Positions 14,537 to 32,927 of a stretch of 56,032 nucleotides of DNA are shown piece by piece; the first letter of the stretch is position 1; each line of letters begins with the position of its first letter. The notes under the pieces are model-generated. The model had not been told where the DNA came from and did not search any database. It saw only the letters and a program-made list of their open reading frames with translations. The translations under genes and the position numbers were made by a program. Origin of the DNA: Gammaproteobacteria bacterium Gsub (GTDB taxonomy: Bacteria; Pseudomonadota; Gammaproteobacteria; PS1; Pseudothioglobaceae); the NCBI GenBank assembly GCA_002007405.1, contig JYIN01000006.1, positions 1 to 56,032 of the forward strand, written 5' to 3'.

Positions 14537-15580
14537 ATGGACAAAAAAATCAAGGCTGTGTCGTTAATATCAGGCGGATTGGACTCTCTTTTGAGTACTA
14601 AATTAATACTTGATCAAGGGATTCATGTAGAGGGCATTAACTTTTTTACTGGTTTTTGTGTGGAAGGACATACCCACGCCATTCGCAAGAAAAAAAGTAA
14701 TAAACCCAAACGCAATAATGCTCTTTGGGTGGCAGAAAAACTGGGCATTAAACTCCATATTATTGATGTGGTTGAAGAATATCGTGATATTTTACTCAAT
14801 CCAAAACACGGCTATGGTAAAAACATGAATCCCTGTTTAGATTGTAAAAGTTTTATGGTTAAAAAAGCCAAACAATGGGTACTTGAAAACAATTTTGACT
14901 TTATTATTACTGGTGAGGTGGTTGGGCAACGCCCGATGTCTCAACGCAAAGAAACCATGCCAATTGTGCAGGCACAATCAGGCGCTGGGGATTTGCTATT
15001 GCGTCCTTTGTGTGGCAAACACCTGCCAGCAACCAAGGCAGAAATCAAAGGCTGGGTTAGGCATGAGAAATTATTAGATTTTTCTGGACGCACGCGCAAG
15101 CCACAAATGGCACTGGCAAAAAAATATGGGTTTGAAGATTACGCCACACCCGCAGGAGGCTGTTGTTTTTTAACCAATAAACAATATTCAGATAAATTGG
15201 TAGATATGTGGCAAGCTAGGGGTAATCGTGATTATCAATTAGACGATTTAATGTTGCTCAAAGTAGGTCGGCATATTCGTCCTAATCAGCGTTTTAAAAT
15301 GATTATTGCCCGTGAAGAGGGGGAGGTGAAGTTTCTACGAGGCTATCGTAGTCAATACACGCATTTATACCCTACCAGCTGTAATGGTCCTTTGACATTG
15401 ATTGATGGCAAATTTAACCAACAAGATTTAATCCTTGCTGCAAAAATTTTAGCGCGTTACTCACAAGTCAGAGATGCTGATAGTGTGGATGTGGAAGTGA
15501 AATTGGATTCTGGTATCATGCAAACACTGAGTGTTGAGCCGTTTTCTAATGATGAAATCAAAAAAGAGTGGCGGGTGTAA
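14537..15580 (+). CDS. ThiI-like PP-loop protein with NFACT-R-type RNA-binding domain
   Basis: Probable ATP-dependent thiolation enzyme acting on RNA. The N-terminal PP-loop SGGLDS (about residues 12-17) activates a substrate by adenylylation, as in ThiI and MnmA. Cysteines occur in CLDCKSFM (a CxxC near residue 100) and in PAGGCCF (near 207), which could carry sulfur or a metal. The C-terminal part (LKVGRHIRPNQRF, then IIAREEGEV) matches the RNA-binding NFACT-R domain that in some bacteria is joined to a ThiI-like PP-loop. It is not canonical ThiI (no THUMP or rhodanese domain) nor MnmA. It is often labelled a tRNA thiouridine methyltransferase, which I consider wrong. The RNA target is unknown. 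It converges on thiS with only 26 nt between them. Confidence 0.72.
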   Translation: MDKKIKAVSLISGGLDSLLSTKLILDQGIHVEGINFFTGFCVEGHTHAIRKKKSNKPKRNNALWVAEKLGIKLHIIDVVEEYRDILLNPKHGYGKNMNPCLDCKSFMVKKAKQWVLENNFDFIITGEVVGQRPMSQRKETMPIVQAQSGAGDLLLRPLCGKHLPATKAEIKGWVRHEKLLDFSGRTRKPQMALAKKYGFEDYATPAGGCCFLTNKQYSDKLVDMWQARGNRDYQLDDLMLLKVGRHIRPNQRFKMIIAREEGEVKFLRGYRSQYTHLYPTSCNGPLTLIDGKFNQQDLILAAKILARYSQVRDADSVDVEVKLDSGIMQTLSVEPFSNDEIKKEWRV

Positions 15581-15606
15581 AAAACGATAGATTATTAAAG
15601 ACAGAC

Positions 15607-15807
15607 CTACCCGCCACCAACAGCTTTAATAATCTCACAAATATCGCCCTCATTAAGGGTAAATTCAGCATATTTAGATCGGGGGATAACCACCTCATTA
15701 ACTTCTAAGGCAACGCGGCGGTCTTGATAATTAAGTTTTGTAATTAAGTTGGCAGCATTTGAGTTATCAGCAATTTCAAGTGGTGAGCCGTTGACTTGTA
15801 AAATCAT
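15607..15807 (-). CDS. thiS: ThiS-type sulfur carrier protein
   Basis: Small beta-grasp protein whose C-terminal Gly-Gly is adenylylated and thiocarboxylated to deliver sulfur for the thiazole of thiamine. The start is ATG 15807 (MILQVNGSPLEI), giving 66 residues; the frame is open 8 codons further but that lies in the upstream gene. It ends EIIKAVGGG, so the required terminal glycines are present. The start overlaps the stop of the upstream metal-binding protein (ATGA), so the two are co-translated. thiG and the rest of the thiazole pathway are not next to it. Confidence 0.88.
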   Translation of the reverse strand: MILQVNGSPLEIADNSNAANLITKLNYQDRRVALEVNEVVIPRSKYAEFTLNEGDICEIIKAVGGG

Positions 15808-16073
15808 TGATTGATTTTTCCAATCGCACAAGAGACGAAAGACTTCGCCTTCGCTTTTGCCGAGCCTATACCACGCACGGAATCAACCTCAGGATAGCCA
15901 AGTCCTAACAAAATTTTAACAACTTCGGGCTTTCTTCCGTCATCTAAATCAATACTAACGATACCTTTTTTAATGTCAACTTTAATATTTTTGGTATTAA
16001 AAGTTGAGGCTAATTTTTTGTTAATTGAGCCAGCACAGCCACCACATTTAATATTTTCTACGGTAATTTCCAT
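15804..16073 (-). CDS. Heavy-metal-associated (HMA) domain protein with C-terminal extension
   Basis: The first 65 or so residues form an HMA/CopZ-like ferredoxin fold: METVxN-like opening, CGGC at residues 10-13 as the metal site, and the I-V-S-I-D-L strand after KGI. A further about 20 residues (SAKAKAKSFVSCAIGKINQ) with one more Cys are not part of the usual domain. The 89-residue protein lacks any membrane helix, so it would be a soluble metallochaperone or a sulfur/persulfide-handling protein. Coupling to thiS by an ATGA overlap suggests a shared role; what metal or partner it serves is unknown. Confidence 0.75.
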   Translation of the reverse strand: MEITVENIKCGGCAGSINKKLASTFNTKNIKVDIKKGIVSIDLDDGRKPEVVKILLGLGYPEVDSVRGIGSAKAKAKSFVSCAIGKINQ

Positions 16074-16183: not shown

Positions 16184-17308
16184 GTGTTACAAAATGCCTT
16201 ATTAGCATTAGAAGATGGTCAGATTTTCAAGGGAAAATCAATCGGTATTAACGGTCAAGCAAAAGGCGAAGTGGTGTTTAACACTTCAATGACTGGCTAT
16301 CAAGAGATTCTAACTGACCCTTCTTATACGCAACAAATTGTTGTCCTGACTTATCCCCACATTGGCAATACGGGTACCAATTCAGTTGATGAAGAGTCGG
16401 GAAAAATTTACGCATCAGGTTTAATCATCCGCGATTTGGCGCTGATTTCAAGTAATTGGCGTTCTCAAATGTCGTTAAGTGACTATTTATTAGCACACAA
16501 TATTATTGCCATTAGTGAGATTGATACCCGTGCATTAACACGCCATTTACGCGAATATGGTGCCCTTAAAGGTTATATTGTAACTGGAGACAACACTAAT
16601 GAAGCGATGGCTGTTAAAAAAGCACAATCGTTTGCAGGGCTAAAAAATATGGATTTGGCGAAAGTAGTCTCCACCACGGAGCAATATCAATTTAACCAAG
16701 CGCCACATTCGCTAGCAACTAATAAATATACCAATCCAACAACTAAGAAATTTAAGGTTGTGGTTTATGATTATGGAGTAAAGAAAAATATTTTAAGAAT
16801 GTTGGTTGAGCGTGGTTGTGTTTTAACTGTGGTGAATGCCCAAAAACCAGCTGCTGAGGTTCTGGCAATGAATCCAGACGGAGTATTTTTGTCTAATGGT
16901 CCGGGAGACCCTAAGTCTTGCAACTATGCCATTGATAATATCAAAACTTTGTTAGAAAAAAACCTACCCATATTTGGAATTTGCCTTGGTCACCAACTGC
17001 TGTCTTTAGCAAGTGGTGCGAAGACCAAAAAAATGAAATTTGGTCATCATGGCGCAAATCATCCAGTGCAAGATTTACAAACCAAACAAGTTATGATTAC
17101 CTCGCAAAACCACGGTTTTGCTGTTGCCGAAGAAAATCTAGGCAAGCATTTAAAAATCACCCACCGCTCATTATTTGACAATTCAATTCAAGGTGTTAGC
17201 GTGATTGCCAAAAAAGCATTTGGTTTTCAAGGGCATCCCGAGGCTTCACCAGGACCCCATGATATGAGCGCCTTATTTGATACTTTTATAACGGAGATGA
17301 AAAAATGA
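16184..17308 (+). CDS. carA: Carbamoyl-phosphate synthase small subunit
   Basis: Glutaminase subunit that feeds ammonia to CarB for carbamoyl phosphate, used in pyrimidine and arginine synthesis. I choose GTG 16184 because GGGAG at 16173-16177 sits 6 nt before it and the protein then starts [12 protein letters not shown], as in the family; the frame is open to TTG 16160. The class I GATase domain has the nucleophile C267 (GICLGHQ; E. coli C269) and the His-Glu pair in [11 protein letters not shown]. The 374-residue length is normal. Its stop overlaps the ATG of mlaA, so carA, mlaA and carB form one operon. Confidence 0.97.
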
Positions 17309-17976
17309 AAATCTTATTTTTATTGTTAATTAGCCTGAGCGTTATTGCAAATGACGACCCATGGGAAGACTTCAATCGGACAACATTCAAATTCAACCAA
17401 ACTTTAGATGAAAATATTTTTGAGCCAGTGGCTAGAGGTTATAAAGAATCCGTGCCTCAAAATGTACAAAATAGAGTGAGTGATTTCTCCTCTAATCTGG
17501 GTGATATTTCAACCTTGGGCAATGAAATTTTGCAGTTTGAAGCGCTTGATAGTGCCAATACGCTGAGTAGAGTTTTAATCAATTCAACACTGGGTTTGTT
17601 AGGTCTTTTTGATGTAGCAAGCATGGTAGGGCTTGAAAAAACCAGTGAAGATTTTGGTCAAACGATGGCTGTTTGGGGTGCTTCAAGTGGTCCTTATGTA
17701 GTTTTGCCAGTTTTTGGATCTTCAACAATTCGTGATACAACAGGTTTGGTTGTCGATAGTGTGGAAAATAATAAAGTGGTTAGGAGTCTTGATTCAAAAC
17801 AATCTCTATCAATAACATTGACCCGGGCTGTTGATACCAGAGTAAAACTACTGCCAGTAACTGATTTGCTTAAAAATTCAGGCGACCCTTACATTAGCAC
17901 GCGTTCATCTTATTTACAAAAACGCAAATTTGATATTTATGATGGTGATTTGCCAGTTGAAGAAGATGAATTCTAA
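17305..17976 (+). CDS. mlaA: MlaA/VacJ-family phospholipid-transport protein without a lipobox
   Basis: MlaA removes mislocalised phospholipid from the outer leaflet of the outer membrane and passes it to the Mla system. The family core is clear: [14 protein letters not shown] near residue 18, [35 protein letters not shown] and [10 protein letters not shown]. Two things are odd. The signal peptide (residues 1-15) is not followed by a cysteine and the protein has no Cys at all, so it cannot be a lipoprotein as E. coli MlaA is. And it lies between carA and carB, with GGAG 8 nt before the ATG. The other mla genes are not in the window. Confidence 0.92.
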
Positions 17977-30790: not shown

Positions 30791-31201
30791 ATGACAAGAA
30801 AACAACATTTTTATACATTTGCACTGTCTGTAGCCATCAGTACGATGGTTTTTGCACTGCCGTCTTATGCGGCTAAGGCAGATGTAAAAGCACTAAAAAA
30901 AGCGACAAAAACATGCCAAAAATTGCACCCTTCAATGGTTGAGGGTTGTGCATTTTCTTTTAGTAGAAGACATGGCAACTGTTTAGGTTGTCACCAAGTT
31001 CAAGGTGGTGTGCAACCGGGCAATGTTGGTCCACCGCTGATTGCGATGAAAGCGAGATTTCCAGATAAAAGTGCGTTAAGACTACAAATTTGGGACGCAA
31101 CAATTAAAAATCCAAATTCTATGATGCCTCCGTTTGGCAGACACAAAGCGTTGTCTGAGTCTCAAATTGATAAAATCACAGATTTTGTTCATTCACTATA
31201 A
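30791..31201 (+). CDS. soxX: Sulfur-oxidation cytochrome c SoxX
   Basis: Monohaem c-type cytochrome that forms the SoxXA complex, which oxidatively attaches thiosulfate to SoxY in the periplasm. A signal peptide ends near SYA-AKA (residue 27). One haem site CLGCH spans C64-H68, and the axial methionine lies in NSMMPPFG (M111/M112). An additional cysteine pair (TC42, GC53) precedes the haem. The 136-residue length fits. It is the first gene of soxXYZAK; soxY follows after 16 nt. Confidence 0.95.
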   Translation: MTRKQHFYTFALSVAISTMVFALPSYAAKADVKALKKATKTCQKLHPSMVEGCAFSFSRRHGNCLGCHQVQGGVQPGNVGPPLIAMKARFPDKSALRLQIWDATIKNPNSMMPPFGRHKALSESQIDKITDFVHSL

Positions 31202-31217
31202 ACTAAGGAGGGTAAAA

Positions 31218-31661
31218 ATGAAGAGAAGATTATTCTTAAAAAGCGCAATCGCAGGTTCTGCAGTTGCAACGGTAGTGGGGGCAGGCTTATTAACACCAAG
31301 TATGGTTTTTGCTAACACGGCATCTTTTAAATCTAAATCTGCTAAATTAAGCAACACAGCAGCAGGTGCAGGTGCAGGTTCGTTTAAACTTAAAGTCCCT
31401 AAAATTGCCGAAAATGGTGCAGTTGTTCCAATTACGGTAGATGCTTCTAAAATGAGCGATGTCAGTAGTATCTCAGTTTTAGTCAAAAACAACGACACTC
31501 AATTAGCCGCTTCCTTTAATTTAGAAGGTGCCCAGGGTTTTGTTTCTACTCGTGTTAAGATGAGTAAAACTTCCCCAGTAACAGCTTTAGTTACAGCGGC
31601 TGGTGCAACAACAGCGGTTAGCAAAGATGTAAAAGTAACCATTGGCGGTTGCGGCGGTTAA
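31218..31661 (+). CDS. soxY: Thiosulfate-oxidation carrier protein SoxY
   Basis: Carries sulfur intermediates on a C-terminal cysteine while the other Sox enzymes act on them. The start is ATG 31218 behind a strong AAGGAGGG; the longer open frame overlaps soxX and is not used. The N terminus MKRRLFLKSA is a twin-arginine-type export signal, fitting export as a folded SoxYZ complex. It ends GGCGG (C145), the swinging-arm motif. Length is 147 residues. soxZ follows after a 73-nt gap holding a tandem repeat. Confidence 0.96.
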   Translation: MKRRLFLKSAIAGSAVATVVGAGLLTPSMVFANTASFKSKSAKLSNTAAGAGAGSFKLKVPKIAENGAVVPITVDASKMSDVSSISVLVKNNDTQLAASFNLEGAQGFVSTRVKMSKTSPVTALVTAAGATTAVSKDVKVTIGGCGG

Positions 31662-31677
31662 TCTATGGGTATTACAA

Positions 31678-31711
31678 ATATTACAATTACAAGGATATTA
31701 CAATTACAAGG
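31678..31711 (+). repeat. Two-unit tandem repeat between soxY and soxZ
   Basis: The 17-bp unit ATATTACAATTACAAGG occurs twice head to tail with no mismatch, preceded by a partial copy (GTATTACAA). Each unit ends in AAGG, resembling a weak ribosome-binding site, but the soxZ site is TAAGGAG further downstream. Confidence 0.8.
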
Positions 31712-31734
31712 AATATCAGATAAGGAGAATAAAA

Positions 31735-32037
31735 ATGGGAAAAATTAAACTCAAGCCTAAGGCTATAAAGGGTGTTATTAGTATTAAAGCACTGGTTAAA
31801 CATCCAATGGAGACAGGTCTGCGTAAGAAGAAAGGGAAATTAGTGCCTGCCAATCATATTGTACATATGACGGTTTCACACAATGGTAATAAGATTGTGG
31901 ACGCTGATATTGGTAGTGCTGTCTCTAAAAACCCGTATTTTAAGTTCAAAGTGCCTGGCGCTAAAGGCGATACCATTGCACTTAAATACGAAGATAATAA
32001 CGGTAAAACAGGTTCTGCGAATGCAGAATCTAAGTAA
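31735..32037 (+). CDS. soxZ: Thiosulfate-oxidation carrier partner SoxZ
   Basis: Immunoglobulin-fold partner of SoxY. It has no signal peptide of its own, as expected because SoxZ is exported bound to the Tat-targeted SoxY. The start is ATG 31735 with TAAGGAG upstream; the frame is open earlier but that part is unlike SoxZ. Conserved blocks are IKALVKHPMETGLRKKKG, IPANHI-like PANHIVHM and NPYFKFKVPGAKGD. The 100-residue length is typical. Confidence 0.95.
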   Translation: MGKIKLKPKAIKGVISIKALVKHPMETGLRKKKGKLVPANHIVHMTVSHNGNKIVDADIGSAVSKNPYFKFKVPGAKGDTIALKYEDNNGKTGSANAESK

Positions 32038-32063
32038 CTGTAATTACTTATAAGGAGAGAGTA

Positions 32064-32927
32064 ATGAAAAAACTATTAACAATATTTACAACAGCAGCTT
32101 TGTTAGGATCGACCATGGTAATGGCTGCACAACAATCATCAGTAGTTCAGGCTGATATTGATGCTTTTCAAAATTACTTCAAAAAGCGGTTTCCAAACTT
32201 ATCGTTAAATGATTTTTCCAAAGGTCCATACGCGATGAGTGAGGATAAAAAATTGCAATTTGATGCGATTATGGAATTTCCACCGTTTGAAGATCTTAGA
32301 GATAAAGGTGAAGCTTTATGGAAAAAGCCCTTCAAAAACGGTAAAACCTATTCAAGCTGTTTTTCAGGTGCTGATAAGACCATTCGCACCCAATTTCCAA
32401 GGTGGAATGCAAAAACAGGTAAAGTTGAAACATTAGAAGGAGAGATTCTTAAATGTCGGGTCAAAAACGGGGAAAGGAAAATTGGTTCTGGGAAAGGTAA
32501 ATTAGCTTGGATTTCGGCTTATTTAACAACTATCGCCAAAGGTCAAGTTATCAATGTAATTGTACCTGAGGGTGATGAAAAAGCACTGGCCGCTTATAAT
32601 GCAGGAAAAAAAGAGTTTTATGCAAAACGAGGTCAATTAAACTTGTCTTGTGCAAATTGTCACATTGATAGTCCAGGTCAACGCATTCGTGGTAATACAC
32701 TATCACCAGCATTGGGTCAAATTACCCATTTTCCTGTATGGCGTGGTAAATGGGCTAAAAAGAAAGGCGATGGTTTTGGCACCATTCAGCGCCGTTATGG
32801 TGGTTGCAACAAACAAGTTAGGGCCAAACCACGGAAACGCCAAAGAGATGCTTACAATAATTTAGAGTTTTTCCACACAGCAATGAGTAACGGTTTGGAA
32901 ATTTCTGGCACTGAATACAGAGAATAA
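32064..32927 (+). CDS. soxA: Sulfur-oxidation cytochrome c SoxA, single-haem type
   Basis: Catalytic subunit of SoxXA, joining thiosulfate to the SoxY cysteine. A signal peptide ends near VMA-AQQ (residue 21). Only one haem site is present, CANCH at C196-H200. The position of the N-terminal haem in dihaem SoxA is occupied by C99 (YSSCF) and C131, which probably form a disulfide as in known single-haem forms. The active-site cysteine ligand is C248 in RRYGGCNKQ. The 287-residue length is normal. GGAGAG precedes the ATG. Confidence 0.95.
   Translation: MKKLLTIFTTAALLGSTMVMAAQQSSVVQADIDAFQNYFKKRFPNLSLNDFSKGPYAMSEDKKLQFDAIMEFPPFEDLRDKGEALWKKPFKNGKTYSSCFSGADKTIRTQFPRWNAKTGKVETLEGEILKCRVKNGERKIGSGKGKLAWISAYLTTIAKGQVINVIVPEGDEKALAAYNAGKKEFYAKRGQLNLSCANCHIDSPGQRIRGNTLSPALGQITHFPVWRGKWAKKKGDGFGTIQRRYGGCNKQVRAKPRKRQRDAYNNLEFFHTAMSNGLEISGTEYRE

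Follow-up and report, generated by a model that had tools for sequence, protein, structure and literature searches.

Do a PP-loop enzyme, a ThiS sulfur carrier and a heavy-metal-associated (HMA) protein, encoded side by side in a 1.37-Mb gammaproteobacterial genome, form one sulfur-relay pathway, or do the three genes serve separate ends? They lie between positions 14,537 and 16,073 of a 56,032-nucleotide (nt) stretch of Gammaproteobacteria bacterium Gsub (contig JYIN01000006.1; this whole stretch is called the window below). A first-pass annotation had proposed that persulfide or metal is handed from the HMA protein to ThiS and on to the PP-loop protein as an RNA thiolation enzyme. We propose that the PP-loop protein, which joins a ThiI/MnmA-type PP-loop domain to an NFACT-R_2 domain, is probably an overlooked tRNA-thiolating enzyme of bacteria lacking ThiI and is fed by TusA. 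We hold with good confidence the combined reading in which this protein is a 4-thiouridine (s4U) synthetase that replaces ThiI and works with TusA, ThiS serves thiamine synthesis, and the HMA protein is a copper-type metallochaperone. The substrate, the iron-sulfur cluster, TusA as donor and the role of the HMA protein are deduced from domains, fold, invariant cysteines, gene linkage and profiles; for s4U synthesis the deduction extends as far as the distribution of the enzyme carries it.

The gene for the candidate alternative tRNA 4-thiouridine synthetase (14537..15580, + strand) encodes 347 amino acids (aa). Its N-terminal domain is a PP-loop of the ThiI/MnmA type with the motif SGGLDS (residues 12-17; 14570..14587, + strand), which agrees with the SGGxDS of ThiI and is unchanged in 126 of 127 distinct sequences, the remaining one not reaching the motif. 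The C-terminal domain (15266..15574, + strand), the probable RNA-binding end, is NFACT-R_2 (PF18297, 114.4 bits against a gathering cut-off of 26.9). The protein lies well below the thresholds of both neighbouring families: it scores 42.0 bits against the ThiI family TIGR00342 (cut-off 264.5, PP-loop part only) and 40.7 bits against MnmA (cut-off 284), and the MnmA that makes 2-thiouridine at position 34 (s2U34) is encoded by a separate gene of the same genome (464.7 bits versus 284). An NCBIfam scan of three PP-loop/NFACT-R_2 members returned no family above its own cut-off that names the enzyme. A predicted structure (pLDDT 87.2, pTM 0.81) was searched as a whole model, with the C-terminal domain included. 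The best match of the N-terminal domain was ThiI (4kr6; Z 15.1, root-mean-square deviation (rmsd) 3.0, 171 residues aligned), within 1 Z of YcfA and ThiI 2c5s and followed by LarE and MnmA. The C-terminal domain matched best the NFACT-R part of an RqcH entry (8s1u; Z 14.2, rmsd 2.2, 101 aligned; model residues 245-347 on chain H) and also 5h3w, among RqcH/FBPS-type entries (Z 14.0). The two domains and the ThiI and RqcH fold matches agree with the earlier description of a ThiI-like protein with an NFACT-R-type end, which looks like an RNA-thiolation enzyme.

Three cysteines are conserved in the arrangement of the [4Fe-4S]-dependent PP-loop thiolases, a CxxC plus one more. C100 and C103 of the NPCLDC motif (14828..14845, + strand), two of the three proposed cluster ligands, are found in every one of the 127 distinct sequences. 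C210 of the GGCC motif (15155..15166, + strand), the proposed third ligand, is present in 126 of 127 (the other has an X). C209 is kept in 124 of 127; the only members without it and C41 are three divergent ones (L349, L350 and L352), which also lack an adjacent tusA. Two further loci (L348 and L351) have no adjacent tusA yet keep both residues, so that receipt of sulfur by C41 and C209 is only weakly hinted at by these sequences. The rows from genomes G010, G016 and G117 are fragmentary.

The s4U found at position 8 of tRNA serves as a sensor of near-ultraviolet light and as a tRNA quality mark. In a class-wide sample of 276 genomes (completeness 90% or more), the PP-loop/NFACT-R_2 enzyme and ThiI have complementary distributions. 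PF18297 was found in 141 genomes and canonical ThiI (TIGR00342, E<=1e-40; 18 of the 20 ThiI genomes above the cut-off) in 20, and no genome had both (10.2 expected; P = 2.8e-7). At the family level, which softens the effect of kinship and rests on an approximate total of about 157 families, 16 ThiI families and 79 PF18297 families did not overlap. All 50 PF18297 loci that were inspected (30 best-scoring and 20 further ones) hold the PP-loop protein, that of G065 as a decayed remnant, which is still counted among the 141 genomes. No match above the ThiI cut-off was found in 36 genomes of the family to which the window belongs.

A second line of evidence comes from the eraser of the modification. 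RudS removes s4U from tRNA, with DUF1722 as its tRNA-binding part, and its authors describe RudS-containing groups without ThiI and suggest that these may contain differently built ThiI homologues or be without s4U (PMC11417400). The PP-loop/NFACT-R_2 enzyme is a direct candidate for such a homologue. DUF1722 occurs in 77 of the 276 genomes, 67 with PF18297 and 10 with ThiI, and in none of the 115 with neither enzyme (Fisher test, P = 4.8e-23). When the seven weakest matches are removed the counts are 60, 10 and 0, and the 58 families over which DUF1722 is spread all have the PF18297 enzyme or ThiI. Among 20 DUF1722 loci chosen rather than drawn at random (17 strong and three odd, all from the 67 PF18297 genomes), 17 show the RudS architecture, a TudS-type desulfurase domain (PF04463) ahead of DUF1722. 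As a control, an HMA profile search matched 51 of the 276 genomes, 8 of them among the 115; the same ratio applied to DUF1722 predicts its presence in about 12% of the 115, against the 0 observed. These 115 genomes, which have neither enzyme nor DUF1722, could be devoid of s4U or could make it by a third route.

The partner of the PP-loop enzyme is TusA, rather than ThiS or HMA. Outside the family of the window, the gene immediately downstream of the PP-loop gene is tusA at 27 of the 30 PF18297 loci with the best scores, at 15 of the 20 further loci (a choice that took in the lowest scores and long frames; the G065 remnant is counted here too) and at 70 of 77 named loci, 44 of which also have glnA within the stretch. 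The three best-scoring loci without adjacent tusA are L184, L195 (contig end just past the gene) and L202. A search of the 1.5 to 3.5 kb flanking these 127 loci (shorter where a contig ended) turned up neither ThiS nor HMA. One locus outside the 127 (L320 of G156), the sole such case seen outside the family, has a tailed HMA gene about 2 kb from the PP-loop gene, inside a PP-loop-tusA-cation efflux-glnA neighbourhood.

Within the family (36 genomes, G000-G035, of 57 searched) the PP-loop gene was found in 27 genomes, ThiS in 33, HMA in 26 and a TusA paralogue in 30. The paralogue is present in 27 of 27 PP-loop-positive versus three of nine PP-loop-negative genomes, the strongest correlation with the PP-loop gene in the family (Fisher, P = 0.0002). 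In the genome of the window it is unlinked from the PP-loop gene, contains CPMP, and scores 71.5 bits against PF01206 (gathering 28.6) and 41 against the NCBIfam TusA equivalog, below the cut-off of 78. The paralogue is located immediately upstream of glnA in seven of seven family genomes examined (G000, G002, G020, G021, G022, G026 and G030), an arrangement shared with the outgroups. An ancestral order PP-loop-tusA-glnA, from which the PP-loop gene later moved, accounts for this most simply; in the family of the window that gene would have left its place in front of tusA and glnA for a site between alaS and carA. Two loci record decay or disturbance: L355 (G065) carries the decayed PP-loop/NFACT-R_2 gene with a tusA remnant beside it (300 nt), a possible joint loss, and in G015 (L160, 7035-7529), where the PP-loop gene was not found and the TusA paralogue is kept, a transposase-like open reading frame stands beside thiS at the expected PP-loop site.

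Several observations weigh against an s4U synthetase paired with TusA. Adjacent downstream tusA is missing from five of the 20 further loci and seven of the 77 named ones (the seven include L273, at a contig end, and L279, where tusA is upstream instead), and three family genomes (G015, together with G018 and G032, which are less complete) retain the TusA paralogue without the PP-loop gene. Three of the 20 inspected DUF1722 matches are not full RudS: that of G130 is 159 aa of DUF1722 only, that of G101 is cut by a contig end, and that of G057, among the seven weak matches, is fused to Pyr_excise. The DUF1722 profile also matches E. coli through its stand-alone YbgA, and the window's own genome has neither a canonical ThiI nor a DUF1722 match. 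The control HMA gene, too, is depleted in genomes with neither enzyme (Fisher, P = 1.8e-5), so genome type accounts for part of the DUF1722 pattern; and because the sampled genomes are related, the P values overstate independence. As a separate observation, the G057 fusion (L375, 897-1607), a pyrimidine-dimer glycosylase with a partial DUF1722, may link ultraviolet repair with tRNA s4U binding.

The other two genes run toward the PP-loop gene. The thiS gene (15607..15807, - strand) encodes 66 aa ending in GGG and is probably the thiamine sulfur carrier (TIGR01683, 72.7 bits against a cut-off of 37.45); upstream of it on the same strand lies the gene for the 89-aa HMA protein (15804..16073, - strand). 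All three genes and the 26-nt convergent gap between the PP-loop stop and the thiS end (15607) are as first annotated. The co-translated pair holds with one correction: ATG 15807, which overlaps the stop codon of HMA as ATGA, is a likelier thiS start than the upstream TTG 15831. This 4-nt overlap recurs in all 25 family genomes that carry both genes on one contig (G007, with the two on different contigs, was left out). All 27 PP-loop-positive family genomes have a convergent thiS beside the PP-loop gene; the distance is 1706 nt in G002 and ranges from -4 to 912 nt in the other 26. Both arrangements are thus conserved beyond chance, and the genes are not scattered in close relatives.

ThiS is most likely the ordinary thiazole sulfur carrier of thiamine synthesis, since it is retained without the PP-loop gene, thiG and a MoeB/ThiF-type enzyme are present, and thiS adjoins thiG in outgroups. 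The search for thiF and thiG that the first-pass annotation had called for located thiG (G000:C10:55501-56244, 353.6 bits) and a MoeB/ThiF-type enzyme elsewhere in the genome, both unlinked. ThiS is within 0.32 kb of ThiG in each of the 13 outgroup genomes that yielded a ThiS match; that thiS belongs with thiG, which had been named as a finding that would speak against the relay, therefore largely holds. Four genomes of genus g3 (G003, G013, G025 and G034) have lost the PP-loop gene and the TusA paralogue and kept ThiS and ThiG, and in G003 and G013 thiS still lies between the alaS side and carA. ThiS and PP-loop presence are correlated over all 36 family genomes (Fisher, P = 0.012); ThiS is present in all 29 genomes that are at least 90% complete, so that among them no correlation is left. 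A metagenome study reports that Thioglobaceae are likely vitamin B1 producers expressing thiG (PMC12236431).

The HMA protein is most likely a copper-type metallochaperone. It matches PF00403 (31.6 bits, gathering 24.8) with a CxxC at residues 10-13, falls short of NCBIfam CopZ (18.6 against 91) and of TIGR00003 (16 against 62), and has copper chaperones and copper ATPase domains as its relatives in the Protein Data Bank (PDB). The third cysteine of the first description exists, as Cys82 within a conserved tail (residues 63-89; 15807..15887, - strand), and is invariant (13 of 13 rows of alignment A3, and all 29 rows of a larger one, two of which have lost the first cysteine of the CxxC); the tail itself is less unusual than described, as matches spanning it occur in 23 of the 276 class genomes. 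Neighbours of HMA genes elsewhere are varied (MerR, hypE, parC, gpsA, cation efflux, thiD/thiE and thiO), named by eye except the MerR of G201 (Pfam) and ThiD and ThiE (similarity to E. coli); in G050 the MerR gene, named by eye, is followed by a probable multicopper oxidase.

Other readings of the locus were weighed against these results. A three-gene relay, in which HMA gives persulfide or metal to ThiS and ThiS feeds the PP-loop enzyme as TtuB feeds TtuA, agrees with the neighbourhood being kept in the family, and TtuA-type thiolases with ThiS-like carriers are known; HMA presence also tracks the PP-loop gene (Fisher, P = 0.007, n = 29 genomes of 90% completeness or more), largely through genus g3. 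We consider it highly unlikely, however, and rejected it as the principal reading, as profiles and linkage come apart. All six g3 genomes lack HMA: the four named above keep ThiS without the PP-loop gene, and the other two (G020 and G030) have the PP-loop gene, the TusA paralogue and ThiS. With G010, which also has ThiS, seven genomes lack HMA and three of them keep the PP-loop gene. HMA and thiS stay coupled in seven genomes where the PP-loop gene is 0.5-1.7 kb distant, and it is TusA that tracks the PP-loop gene and adjoins it in the outgroups. A different target for the enzyme, another RNA position (e.g. s2C32 or s2U54) or another molecule instead of U8, is an unlikely alternative but one with some weight: the fold also resembles LarE and MnmA, PP-loop enzymes act at several positions, and U8 as substrate is arrived at indirectly. 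The mutual exclusion with ThiI and the presence of one or the other enzyme in all 77 DUF1722 genomes speak for U8.

For the HMA protein, one could suppose a thiol or persulfide helper of ThiS in thiazole synthesis, in the role that the rhodanese domain of ThiI has in E. coli. The overlap with thiS in all 25 genomes, the lack of any ThiI above the cut-off in the family and the invariance of Cys82 agree with this, and the tailed HMA genes of two other lineages are located between thiE and thiD (G144, L319) or beside thiO (G296, L324, by eye), a weak hint. Yet, of 20 tailed-HMA loci outside the family, these two alone have ThiD, ThiE or ThiO in the roughly 6 kb around them (less for some stretches), and none of the 20 has ThiS, ThiG or ThiC; ThiF-family matches occur in those of G296 and G208. 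A thiamine link of HMA in other lineages is thus not convincing, and with ThiS present without HMA in the six g3 genomes and G010, two loci beside MerR (G201 and G050), and copper proteins as the best PDB matches, we regard a thiazole helper as distinctly improbable. The reading that HMA and thiS came together accidentally, and share a transcript but not a function, has about an even chance of being right: elsewhere HMA occurs in diverse contexts, with no adjacent ThiS in 19 loci, but the overlap is exactly 4 nt in 25 of 25 genomes despite varied flanks.

Under the s4U synthetase reading, the NFACT-R_2 domain would hold the tRNA and the PP-loop domain would adenylate a uridine, U8 by analogy with ThiI. 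The dedicated TusA paralogue would deliver sulfur as a persulfide to a [4Fe-4S] cluster bound by C100, C103 and C210, from which the sulfur would pass to the activated base. ThiS would serve thiamine thiazole synthesis with the unlinked ThiG and the MoeB/ThiF-type activating enzyme, and the HMA protein, co-translated with ThiS, would act as a copper-type metallochaperone. We think it likely that bacterial tRNA acquires s4U by a second, unrecognised route, in which a PP-loop/NFACT-R_2 enzyme uses a [4Fe-4S] cluster and its own TusA donor. This enzyme would replace ThiI in about half of the sample (141/276) and account, at least in part, for the differently built ThiI that the authors of the RudS study suggested. 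If so, s4U biosynthesis could be annotated in a large share of class genomes that now seem to lack s4U, the RudS eraser would gain a writer in those genomes, and the link between s4U and thiamine in ThiI would prove separable. The parts belong to known families; among the matches listed in the open literature we found neither a description of a PP-loop/NFACT-R_2 enzyme as an s4U synthetase nor this combination with TusA as an s4U writer. Burroughs and Aravind are said to have predicted in 2014 an RNA-thiolation role for NFACT-R/ThiI-like fusions.

The closest named PP-loop relatives found come from a Candidatus Thioglobus metagenome-assembled genome (MAG; L208, 82% identity) and other gammaproteobacterial MAGs. 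Elsewhere in the window, positions 30791-32927 hold a gene run resembling the sox thiosulfate-oxidation genes (cytochromes and SoxY/SoxZ-like, named by eye), which fits a sulfur oxidiser. A MlaA/VacJ-like gene (by eye) at 17305-17976 lies between carA and carB; it is present at this site in G010 and G015 and absent there in G003, G013, G020 and G030.

Compared with known systems, the HMA protein of the window resembles CopZ/Atx1-type copper chaperones in its HMA domain with CxxC and differs in the 27-residue conserved tail, the invariant third cysteine and scores below the NCBIfam CopZ cut-offs. Its ThiS shares the TIGR01683 match and the GG end with the ThiS of thiazole synthesis, but is unlinked from thiG and coupled to HMA. 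The PP-loop/NFACT-R_2 protein has in common with NFACT/RqcH the fold of the C-terminal domain and the Pfam family, whereas no NFACT-N domain was found in it and the domain is joined to a thiolase. The [4Fe-4S] thiolases TtuA, NcsA/Ctu1 and LarE share its CxxC plus C cysteines (C144, C147 and C237 in Ctu1; PMC10067955), and LarE and TtuA are among the structure matches; NFACT-R_2, GGCC and the linked tusA set the protein apart, and its own cluster is a proposed one. A PP-loop, an NPCxxC-type loop and a link to TusA are shared with MnmA, the tRNA 2-thiouridine(34) synthase, whose profile the protein matches far below threshold and which the genome encodes separately. MnmA is fed by the Tus relay. 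With E. coli ThiI the protein shares the PP-loop fold, the proposed reaction and a complementary distribution; it differs in that no THUMP or rhodanese domain was found and in having a C-terminal NFACT-R_2 domain, a CxxC plus C set of cysteines, and a gene that adjoins tusA.
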